From: a virus
IMG/VR virus record: IMGVR_UViG_3300021960_000059
Coordinates: 1 to 64,000 of that record
Strand: one strand, 5' to 3'
Length of the DNA stretch: 64,000 nt
Shown piece by piece: positions 19,548-40,710 of this stretch. The position numbers and the translations under genes are program-made. The notes under the pieces were generated by a model, which made no database searches, had not been told where the DNA came from, and was given only the letters and a program-made list of their open reading frames with translations. The first letter of the stretch is position 1; each line of letters begins with the position of its first letter.

Positions 19548-19807
19548 GATGTATATACTCCATCTAACTTATCACGGAATTGTTCGATTTTTACAAGTCT
19601 ATCTTTGCCGTTCCATTTGATGTAATCTTTTTCTGGATTAGCTGCGAGATTATTCAGTAAAGGTAAAATCATGTTGTATAAAGTATCGCATTTTTCTTTG
19701 TATTTGTCAACCTCAGATGCTGTTGACTGTGCGGTGGACTTGACTTCTTTTACAATGTCAAGTTCGTTTTCATCCACCATAGTGAACCCAAAATCAAAGT
19801 CACTCAT
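19544..19807 (-). CDS. Conserved small protein between gp43 and uvsX
   Basis: 87 aa from the ATG at 19807 (MSDFDFGFTMVDENELDIVK), which overlaps the polymerase stop in ATGA; the longer upstream frame is a shadow of the polymerase. A coiled-coil-like centre (STASEVDKYKEKCDTLYNMI) and a C-terminal block (NPEKDYIKWNGKDRLVKIEQ) are visible. The FDFGFTMVDE opening recurs in small proteins near uvsX in marine T4-like phages. Both ends overlap neighbours by 4 nt, so its dose is tied to polymerase and UvsX. The role is unknown. Confidence 0.65.
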   Translation of the reverse strand: MSDFDFGFTMVDENELDIVKEVKSTAQSTASEVDKYKEKCDTLYNMILPLLNNLAANPEKDYIKWNGKDRLVKIEQFRDKLDGVYTS

Positions 19808-20910
19808 GTGAAAAAATCCTCCAATGTTGCTTTCTTTTCCGAACTCCAACCAATCGCACTGAGAATAGCACTGATGGGTTCAAGGAATGCTTTGTCAAAC
19901 TGTGTGTCGTAGTCTATGTATTGATTCAGCCCGAACTCTTTCGGTAGGGAAGACATAATGCTAAGAACATTTTGCCGAATAGGATTTGGAGTTTTGAGAT
20001 AACAAAACTTGATCTTTTCACCGTCTTTGATTGACTCATAACGTTTCTCCAACTTATGTTGCTTGAGCAAGTGATTGTAGAGTAGACTACCTCTTACATG
20101 AATCGGAGTGCTTTTCATAAACTCCAACTCATCCCCATTGGTTGTATATTTAGTGAGATCAGTCACTCCACGAGGGAATGCAACTTCCTCAAAGGGTAGA
20201 GTGCGAAACTTTTCTTTAAAGTCTGCGATGTATTTTTGTACAGTTGCCTCGTCAGAACTCATAATCAGTTTGACTGCACCCTTCAACGCATCACGACAAG
20301 ACTGTGGTGTTGATGATTTGACAATCTCCAATCCCATGACTTTAAGTTTAGGTTCAGTATATCGTACACCTTCGTTGTCATACACATTGAGTGCATAACG
20401 CTTCTTCGCAGTCCAGATGCCCTTGTCCGCAATTGCCTCACGTTTCATGAACATCTTCTGATCATATACATTCATCAGATCAGCAAGGTTTTGATAACTC
20501 TGATCAATAAACGGTTCAATCTTCTTTTGAGCAACATCGTCCAAGAATTTGACCACCCGGTCAGTATCAAGGTTTTGTACTCCGTCTCCCTTCGTAAACA
20601 CTTGGTTAACCAATCGGTCAAAAGTGATGTATAGCGAATCTGTATCTGAAGCAATGACATAATCTTCACCCTCTGTCTTCAGTAGTTTATTAAGGTATTC
20701 ATTCACTCGTGCTTCGATCCACCGAATGGACAACTGCCCACTCAGCGTAATCGACTCTGCCATTCGCACATCAAAGAAACGAAAGTATTGGTTACCCAAC
20801 GCACCATAGGCAGAGTTCAACTGAACCTTCTTTGCGAGTTGCAGATTCTTGTACTTAGAGATGTCTTTCTCTAACTGCTTCTTGCGAGTAAGAAGTTCTT
20901 GTTTTGTCAA
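19804..20910 (-). CDS. 43B: DNA polymerase gp43, C-terminal part (fingers, palm motif C, thumb)
   Basis: 368 aa. It begins with a helix (MTKQELLTRKKQLEKDISKY) that forms the second half of the fingers. Motif B follows (KKVQLNSAYGALGN), then motif C (ASDTDSLYI) and the KKRY element before the thumb. Motif A and the exonuclease are on a separate gene (21170-22627). With the N-part (485 aa) the total of 853 aa approaches the usual length of T4-type gp43 (898 aa in T4). The start overlaps the stop of the 88-aa gene by 4 nt. The C-terminus should carry the clamp-binding tail (KKATLEDFFT). Confidence 0.9.
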   Translation of the reverse strand: MTKQELLTRKKQLEKDISKYKNLQLAKKVQLNSAYGALGNQYFRFFDVRMAESITLSGQLSIRWIEARVNEYLNKLLKTEGEDYVIASDTDSLYITFDRLVNQVFTKGDGVQNLDTDRVVKFLDDVAQKKIEPFIDQSYQNLADLMNVYDQKMFMKREAIADKGIWTAKKRYALNVYDNEGVRYTEPKLKVMGLEIVKSSTPQSCRDALKGAVKLIMSSDEATVQKYIADFKEKFRTLPFEEVAFPRGVTDLTKYTTNGDELEFMKSTPIHVRGSLLYNHLLKQHKLEKRYESIKDGEKIKFCYLKTPNPIRQNVLSIMSSLPKEFGLNQYIDYDTQFDKAFLEPISAILSAIGWSSEKKATLEDFFT

Positions 20911-21173
20911 AGTACCAATCCACTCACTGCTGAACGGTATGCCTTTTCAATGTCATTGTTTACTGCTGTGACGAACACATACTGCTGAAATGTTACCGCA
21001 TCCGGATTCATTTTCCCTGTTACGCAAATACCTGCCGCAAACCCCATACCTTGTTCATTCTGGATCAGCATCCGAGGATCATCTAAAATAATGTTCCCAT
21101 CTTTCAATGTTCGATACTTACCAACAAACTCGCCTGCAATCGTTACGACTGCTACTACGTCACCTTTTGTCAT
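20907..21173 (-). CDS. Small Sm-like protein wedged in the split polymerase gene
   Basis: 88 aa: GDVVAVVTIAGEFVGKYRTL opens a small beta barrel, followed by NIILDDPRMLI and QYVFVTAVNNDIEKAYRSAV. It overlaps the polymerase N-part by 4 nt upstream and the C-part by 4 nt downstream, so all three proteins are coupled. It shares layout and end motif with the 125-aa protein at 40333-40710 (VNNDIEKAYRS versus VDEDIDAYYIKS; ILDDPRMLI versus SILEPLLLEI), suggesting paralogues with an LSm/Hfq-like fold. It is not a homing endonuclease. It might stabilise the split enzyme or bind RNA; the function is open. Confidence 0.6.
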   Translation of the reverse strand: MTKGDVVAVVTIAGEFVGKYRTLKDGNIILDDPRMLIQNEQGMGFAAGICVTGKMNPDAVTFQQYVFVTAVNNDIEKAYRSAVSGLVL

Positions 21174-22627
21174 GTCAACTCCTTCAGTTGCTTATTTACT
21201 TCTTCAAGTTCTTTCTGTGCTTCAATCATTTTTTGTTTATAAAGTACTCGTTCATTATACATCGTTTCCATCATTTCTGGCAAGAACCCTTGGCAATCTT
21301 TTCGATAGTAGAATCCATTGGCAGTCAAGCATTTGTCTTTGTCTATGGCATCGTCCCATTGATCAATCATTTTCATATCAACGATGTCGTCTACTGTGAT
21401 GTCTTCTTTCATATTGGGTATGAATGTGTCTGGACTGATGTTGTACTGCATGATCAAATGCGGATACAACGAGTTCAAGTCAAACGACATCACCCAATTG
21501 TGCATCCCAACCTGTGGGTCTTTCACATACGCACCCGCATACTTGGAGTCCTTGCCTTGGAAATCCTTTGGCGGAATCACGATCTGTTGCTTGAGCAGGT
21601 AATTATGTATCAACACATCCCACATGCGTACTTGCGTGAAGACATCACCATAGTTTACTTGAGCATCGTAAGCAATCGTCAGTGCCTGTTCGATGAGACG
21701 CATCTTATCCTCCAGTTTGTCAACCAACTCAACATCCTTGATGTTGTAGTCAATGAACTTCTGGTAATCTAACTTATACAGTTGGTGTAGTGTCTCCATC
21801 TCAGAGTAGTCGAGTTTATTCTCACCAAGTTCTACATAACCGATATGATCTAGTCGATACGACTCTTGTTGTGAGTATGTGAACTTTTTATAGAGTTGCA
21901 TATAGTCAAGCACTGCGAGTCCAACTAATGTATACTCTTTTGATTCCTTACCAAAGTTGCCCTTAAAGGTTCGTTCTTGAATCCACTTCGCAGGGGATAG
22001 ACGACGAGCATCTTTCTCACCGATCAGTTTTGTGATACGATTGATTAGATAAGGTATGTCGAATCCATCAACATTCCAACCAGTAACAATGTCAACATCA
22101 ATGCGTTCCCAGAACTCAAGAAATACATCTAGGAGATGTCTTTCTCCACGACAATCCACGTAAGATACAGTATCACGAGTATTGTTATACTCACCGACAC
22201 CAAAAACAAAATATCTGCCATTGACCGAAACCGTAATTGCTGTAACAGGTTGGTTCGCTATCTCTGGATTGGGGAAACCTTCCTCACTACCAACCTCAAT
22301 ATCAATGTTTGCTACTTTCACTACGTCGGGATCAAACTCTTTGCCGTAGTGTTCATTGAGACATGCATATGCCCAATTGGTTGAACCGTAGATCTTAAAG
22401 TTATCTACTTCCTCATATCTAGACACAAAGTCTCGTGCCTCTTTAATTGATCCCAACTCCATCGGTTCGACAGGAGATCCAAGCACTGTCTTCCAAGTCG
22501 TCGGCCGACGAGATGGCACATAGAGGGTAGGTGAATAATCAATACGGTCTACAATGCGACGACCATTGTCGTAACCGCGAATGAAGACCGTATCACCTTT
22601 GCTATAGAAGTTTGTATAAAATCTCAT
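21170..22627 (-). CDS. 43A: DNA polymerase gp43, N-terminal part (N-domain, exonuclease, palm motif A)
   Basis: 485 aa. Family B 3'-5' exonuclease motifs: Exo I VANIDIEVGS, Exo II TGWNVDGFDIPYL, Exo III YNIKDVELVDKL. Palm motif A is MSFDLNSLYPHLIMQYN. The protein ends within the first fingers helix (NERVLYKQKMIEAQKELEEV, then NKQLKELT) before motif B, so it cannot polymerise alone. Split gp43A/gp43B genes are known in some Aeromonas T4-like phages. Here the break falls at the tip of the fingers, where two antiparallel helices could pair across the gap. It overlaps the upstream HAD gene by 4 nt. Confidence 0.9.
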   Translation of the reverse strand: MRFYTNFYSKGDTVFIRGYDNGRRIVDRIDYSPTLYVPSRRPTTWKTVLGSPVEPMELGSIKEARDFVSRYEEVDNFKIYGSTNWAYACLNEHYGKEFDPDVVKVANIDIEVGSEEGFPNPEIANQPVTAITVSVNGRYFVFGVGEYNNTRDTVSYVDCRGERHLLDVFLEFWERIDVDIVTGWNVDGFDIPYLINRITKLIGEKDARRLSPAKWIQERTFKGNFGKESKEYTLVGLAVLDYMQLYKKFTYSQQESYRLDHIGYVELGENKLDYSEMETLHQLYKLDYQKFIDYNIKDVELVDKLEDKMRLIEQALTIAYDAQVNYGDVFTQVRMWDVLIHNYLLKQQIVIPPKDFQGKDSKYAGAYVKDPQVGMHNWVMSFDLNSLYPHLIMQYNISPDTFIPNMKEDITVDDIVDMKMIDQWDDAIDKDKCLTANGFYYRKDCQGFLPEMMETMYNERVLYKQKMIEAQKELEEVNKQLKELT

Positions 22628-40332: not shown

Positions 40333-40710
40333 TTAATGTACCGTGTTTGCTGATAATTCTATTGGTTGCCCAAACTTTTCCATCCAAGGATCATTGACCT
40401 CTTCTTCCGTTTCTTCGTCTTCCTCTGTTTCTTTATCGTTACCCTTAAGTGTAGAAAGCGATTTTATATAGTAGGCATCGATGTCTTCATCTACTGCGGC
40501 AACTGCAACCACATGACTTGTATTCAGATTGACTAAATTAATACTTCTTGTGAGAGGAACCCAAGTCATTGCAATCATCATTGGTCTTCCAGACGGACCT
40601 TCTCCAATTTCAAGTAAAAGAGGTTCAAGAATACTTGTTGTGTTTTCGTCTTGATGCACGATCTCTGCAATGATTGTCTCACCGTTAATTAGTTTTATGA
40701 TTGAGTTCAT
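40333..40710 (-). CDS. Sm-like small protein between UvsW and gp55
   Basis: 125 aa. MNSIIKLINGETIIAEIVHQ fits the first strands of an LSm/Sm-like barrel (x-x-L-x-N-G-E-x-I-x-A). SILEPLLLEI and HVVAVAAVDEDIDAYYIKSL follow, then an acidic linker (ETEEDEETEEEVND) and a short C-terminal peptide (WMEKFGQPIEL). It shares its pattern with the 88-aa protein in the split polymerase (20907-21173). The gene overlaps uvsW by 4 nt and lies 1 nt before gp55. It may bind RNA or a protein partner; not established. Confidence 0.6.
   Translation of the reverse strand: MNSIIKLINGETIIAEIVHQDENTTSILEPLLLEIGEGPSGRPMMIAMTWVPLTRSINLVNLNTSHVVAVAAVDEDIDAYYIKSLSTLKGNDKETEEDEETEEEVNDPWMEKFGQPIELSANTVH

Follow-up and report, generated by a model that had tools for sequence, protein, structure and literature searches.

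In Aeromonas phage 25, the T4-type replicative polymerase gp43 is made as two chains, broken at the fingers between motifs A and B, and the separate gp43A and gp43B products are reported to co-purify and to be active (Petrov et al., 2010; review, PMC2988022). The gap in phage 25 holds a seg-type homing endonuclease and 43B contains a group I intron; in phage 44RR the gap is an untranslated spacer. The review of these two phages leaves open whether an endonuclease came first and other gap contents later (PMC2988022). A cultured example is the marine T4-like Synechococcus phage S-CREM2 (OR473000; locus L376, OR473000.1 21450-27611), in which the 487-aa subunit A, a small ORF that shares 4 nt with it and the 366-aa subunit B follow one another; the paper describing S-CREM2 does not mention the split gp43. 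The OM43 phages MEP401 and MEP402 likewise have a replicative polymerase in two parts around a small unknown ORF (PMC10580990), but theirs is a family A polymerase, an unrelated enzyme. In the open literature we found no description of the gp43 slot of marine phages or of the genes it contains.

The stretch of DNA analyzed here (64,000 nucleotides, hereafter the window) belongs to a T4-like phage with a 68 kb record, and encodes gp43 in two pieces on the minus strand. A sequence-only reading of the window had pointed to split gp43A/B in some Aeromonas T4-like phages. The window gp43 is a genuine Aeromonas-type split polymerase that looks functional, and its probable passenger is not an endonuclease. 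In place of the seg-type endonuclease of phage 25 or the spacer of 44RR, its gap contains a gene for an 88-aa Sm-like protein, and the intron of phage 25 43B is absent. The break coincides with that of S-CREM2 at the tip of the fingers. The S-CREM2 insert differs in encoding a hydrophobic, membrane-like protein of 98 aa that has no sequence relationship to the 88-aa protein, and a possibly structured spacer of ∼86 nt precedes subunit B; the S-CREM2 ORF was thus rejected as an Sm-like homologue.

The two gp43 genes of the window

The upstream gene, gp43A (polA; positions 21170..22627, minus strand), starts with ATG and encodes 485 residues containing the 3'-5' exonuclease, palm motif A and the first fingers helix, as assigned from PHROGs, Pfam (DNA_pol_B_exo1 and DNA_pol_B) and alignment with RB69 gp43. 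The downstream gene, gp43B (polB; 19804..20910, minus strand), starts with TTG and encodes 368 residues containing the second fingers helix, motifs B and C, the thumb and the C-terminal tail, as assigned from PHROGs and the RB69 alignment. The motifs were located where the sequence-only reading had put them: Exo I (ANIDIEVGS), Exo II (TGWNVDGFDIPYL), Exo III (YNIKDVELVDK) and motif A (SFDLNSLYPHL) in the 485-residue part, and motif B (KKVQLNSAYGALGNQYFR) and motif C (SDTDSLY), together with KKRY, in the 368-residue part. Positions 7-496 of the phrog_262 DNA polymerase profile are matched by gp43A (2e-171) and positions 498-851 by gp43B (5e-155), and in the RB69 alignment gp43A reaches residue 501 and gp43B begins at residue 554. 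By both measures the two ORFs jointly span the full gp43. Each also matches a half-length polymerase family, phrog_2062 for gp43A (E 8e-156) and phrog_1918 for gp43B (E 1e-147), and dN/dS values of 0.06-0.14 indicate purifying selection on both.

The window enzyme is best read as a two-subunit T4-type family B DNA polymerase whose gp43A and gp43B chains are made separately and, by homology with that of Aeromonas phage 25, would join into one working polymerase. In such an assembly gp43A would supply motif A of the active site, and gp43B motifs B and C.

The Sm-like gene (20907..21173, minus strand, ATG start) overlaps both polymerase genes by four nucleotides. ATGA overlaps had been claimed on both sides; the overlap of the gp43A stop with the Sm-like start (21170..21173, minus strand) is indeed ATGA, but that of the Sm-like stop with the gp43B start (20907..20910, minus strand) is TTGA because gp43B begins with TTG. 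Four-nucleotide overlaps are also present at the outer ends of gp43A and gp43B with their other neighbors, and an overlap of exactly 4 nt is shared by 11 of the 68 pairs of neighboring ORFs on the minus strand of the window. Such overlaps are nothing special in this genome. A group I intron, an intein or another RNA element in the gap was also considered, and no Rfam match was found there at E ≤ 0.5. With no intein or intron signature and the gap wholly taken by the selected Sm-like ORF, an intein or intron was ruled out.

The break point and the extended fingers hairpin

When the window gp43 is aligned with those of T4, Aeromonas phage 25 and intact marine relatives, the break falls at the fingers tip, between motifs A and B, the region in which phage 25 gp43 is broken as well. 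The intact polymerase of locus L017, modeled with AlphaFold2 (mean pLDDT 79), has its fingers helices at residues 442-470 and 474-501, and the intervening turn (471-473) coincides with the break point. The proposal that gp43 was split at a structurally tolerant fingers tip is thus upheld by the RB69 alignments, the alignment of relatives and the L017 model.

The fingers hairpin, counted between two fixed motifs flanking the tip, contains 53-60 residues in total in split gp43 (n = 33) vs 40-47 in intact gp43 (n = 130), two ranges that do not overlap, in a comparison where the loci are not phylogenetically independent and the split-form lengths depend on the gp43B start codon, which was picked by rule. 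Both fingers helices are lengthened by extra residues, such as EEVNKQLKELT and MTKQELLTRKKQ. In the window, the extra C-terminal extension of the first helix (EEVNKQLKELT) lies at approximately 21173..21205 and the extra N-terminal extension of the second (MTKQELLTRKKQL) at approximately 20872..20910, both on the minus strand and both longer than in all intact relatives measured. The extension is seen in separate lineages beside intact sisters that are without it (L023 and L122 vs L015; L031, L193 and L194 vs L196 and L034), and is present regardless of the cargo in the slot. What is new here is this constancy of the hairpin extension in split polymerases, together with the interchangeable cargo.

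The longer hairpin suggests a longer antiparallel two-helix clamp that could join the halves; its arms probably pair as an antiparallel coiled coil and would keep the fingers together without the covalent turn. That all measured split forms have the longer hairpin gives an idea, open to test, of how the polymerase copes with a cut through its moving fingers. Recombination may also have spread the split junction, and so be the source of the similar extension sequences in distant lineages.

Contents and origin of the slot

Viral contigs were scanned with polymerase or small-gene queries, and 35 non-redundant split gp43 loci (window included) were compared with 148 intact ones. The three-gene arrangement of the window was found again in independent contigs from different metagenomes. 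The commonest slot occupant is the Sm-like gene (24 of the 35 split loci), in counts biased towards this gene because it was among the queries; in 21 loci, the window included, it is alone, and in three it is accompanied by a second gene, for a membrane protein (L014), a homing endonuclease (L273) or an oxygenase-like protein (L341). The slot is empty in four non-redundant loci (L012, L117, L118 and L122); in these and in L123, gp43A and gp43B overlap directly by 8-14 nt. The remaining seven loci have other occupants, namely a 2OG-Fe(II) oxygenase (L013, L031, L193 and L194), a phosphomannomutase-like gene (L023), an HNH endonuclease (L186) and, in L263, a short and ambiguous content. Two further observations concern single contigs. 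L014 has a sub-threshold Rfam match to the ROSE_3 thermoregulator at L014:169-228 (32 bits; gathering score 43). In L314 (IMGVR_UViG_2651870047_000001), gp43A and gp43B both look further broken: the end of gp43A is a short piece of 111 aa, and stops in frame are reported close to gp43B.

On the gp43B tree, the intact or split state requires nine changes, and well-supported branches force at least four. The bare splits L117 and L118 are nested within polymerases that are split and have the Sm-like gene, and the intact L015 is grouped with the split L023 and L122. The Sm-like gene may have entered the slot once or several times: bootstrap trees of the 88-aa protein require 6-7 changes, but a single change is all that the well-supported branches demand. 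In several lineages of marine T4-like phages, an essential replicative polymerase has been opened at one position, which unrelated genes have then reused.

Insertions of homing-endonuclease-like genes, still present in some relatives, probably opened the gap. The slot of L273 contains a homing endonuclease gene (phrog_314, 3e-7; L273:1786-2328) between gp43A and the Sm-like gene, and the endonuclease frame ends in NKQLKELT, identical to the last residues of the window gp43A. This match in sequence suggests that the L273 endonuclease was inserted into the 3' end of gp43A. The HNH endonuclease in the L186 slot is assigned to phrog_374 (9e-60). Loss of the endonuclease would then have turned the gap into a landing site for small unrelated genes, with the endonuclease presumably first and the cargo later. 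Since the window itself retains no homing endonuclease in its gap, the origin of its split is something we infer.

Possible roles of the Sm-like protein: passenger, regulator or subunit

AlphaFold2 predicted the 88-aa protein, as a single chain, with pLDDT 91 and pTM 0.83 from a 50-sequence alignment; the model is a barrel of the Sm-like type that carries a helix at its C-terminus. The best match among solved structures is 3by7, an Sm/LSm-like protein of marine metagenomic origin (VIA Z 10.6, rmsd 1.8 over 77 residues), followed by archaeal and eukaryotic Sm/LSm chains with Z of 7-8; Foldseek E values are 0.005-0.05 and the top rows are all Sm/LSm or LSm-based. 3by7 shares this fold at 14% sequence identity, and in the records examined it has no link to a polymerase gap. 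These models bear out the proposal that the insert is a small Sm-like gene, and a homing endonuclease was rejected from the predicted fold and from the lack of any endonuclease family match. No sequence link from the 88-aa protein to a solved structure was found; a match to 1dtw (E 0.007) was discarded as 30 residues of an unrelated enzyme. The phrog_527 profile is matched by the window protein at E 0.014 and, at E ≤ 0.05, by 42 of 50 family members, the strongest at 5.6e-7, and in sequence the protein may be placed loosely with that family. The window encodes a second protein of the phrog_527 family, of 125 aa with an acidic tail, at positions 40333-40710; it is encoded between a gene for a UvsW-like helicase and one for a 189-aa protein resembling the late sigma factor gp55.

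The 88-aa gene is under purifying selection (dN/dS 0.13-0.22), and its homologues have a life outside the slot. Homologues about 49-63% identical are encoded elsewhere in 20 contigs whose polymerase frame, of 776-863 aa, is intact; their neighbors include gp44-like, ThyX-like, NrdB-like and oxygenase-like ORFs (named by eye from sequence). The cultured T4-like marine phage Methylophilales phage Melnitz has a 28%-identical relative in its replication region; its gp43 is intact (851 aa) and its small gene free-standing. Homologues 72-73% identical to the slot gene are also present at L008:5001-5267 and L009:5001-5267, two contigs on which no polymerase match was found, and the L008 copy immediately precedes an ORF that looks like one for a MazG-type pyrophosphatase.

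In relatives the slot gene can be absent, can have given way to another gene or can lie elsewhere in a genome whose polymerase is unsplit, and for this reason the Sm-like gene is probably a passenger and not a part of the polymerase. We consider it likely that the window has an Aeromonas-type two-subunit gp43 whose gap is a landing site for interchangeable genes, with the Sm-like gene as the passenger. The passenger itself would be a real, selected phage gene of early/replication operons; its product most likely acts alone, as an oligomeric protein that binds nucleic acids or has a regulatory role. That it is the commonest occupant could reflect some functional benefit.

One tentative alternative, which we regard as possible without favoring it, is that the Sm-like protein regulates expression of the replication genes, for example by binding their mRNA, and shares their operon for that reason with no binding to the polymerase. 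The Sm fold is consistent with such a role, as are the free-standing copies near replication or nucleotide-metabolism-like ORFs and the position of the ACG-2014g relative between gp44 and gp62. Such genes are, however, abundant in phage early operons anyway.

The sequence-only reading went further and proposed that the insert had been adopted as a polymerase subunit, which would bind at the split fingers tip. The frequency of the Sm-like gene in the slot, its conservation there across diverged split polymerases, its translational coupling and the selection on it all favor adoption. But the split persists with the slot empty or otherwise filled, the gene occurs elsewhere with an intact polymerase, and the hairpin extension is there whatever the cargo. 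Variable inserts in relatives had been named in advance as telling against adoption, and the slot contents are indeed varied. The gene has also been exchanged independently. The window Sm-like gene is 90% identical to that of L005 and 69% to that of L010, whereas its gp43B is 88% identical to that of L010 and 78% to that of L005; informative sites divide 67:9 vs 61:164 between L005 and L010 (Fisher p 2e-21). By these sequence comparisons, the recombination history of the Sm-like gene differs from that of both polymerase halves. Independent exchange weakens the subunit proposal without excluding it, because a subunit could be swapped if its interface were conserved. The four-nucleotide overlaps, common as they are in the window genome, add little; gene order and such overlaps in compact phage genomes are poor evidence of a protein complex. 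Adoption as a subunit is thus possible but now unlikely, and we give a similarly low probability to its structural form, in which the protein, as a ring or dimer, would grip the extended fingers hairpin and make a three-component replicative polymerase in phages with a slot copy.

The passenger reading supposes two separate chains. In T4 gene 60 an inserted segment is bypassed during translation, and the gp43 halves might similarly be united in one chain if the 88-aa gene were crossed by bypass, frameshifting or splicing; the bare splits, which overlap in a different frame, could be taken the same way. We consider this very improbable, as the insert is a selected ORF found elsewhere as a gene of its own, the gp43B start codons are conserved, the inserts range from 88 to 264 aa and are of unrelated kinds, and intron and intein signatures are absent. 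Practically no weight is given to a sequencing or assembly error or a polymerase gene in decay, for which no supporting point was found and against which stand the intact polymerase motifs, the low dN/dS of both halves and the same split in many contigs and one cultured phage. Recurrence in independent contigs and in cultured S-CREM2, with genes under purifying selection, shows that the split is neither chance nor a read error; a frameshift error was rejected on the same recurrence, and the split relatives bear out the claim that the split is fixed in related phages.
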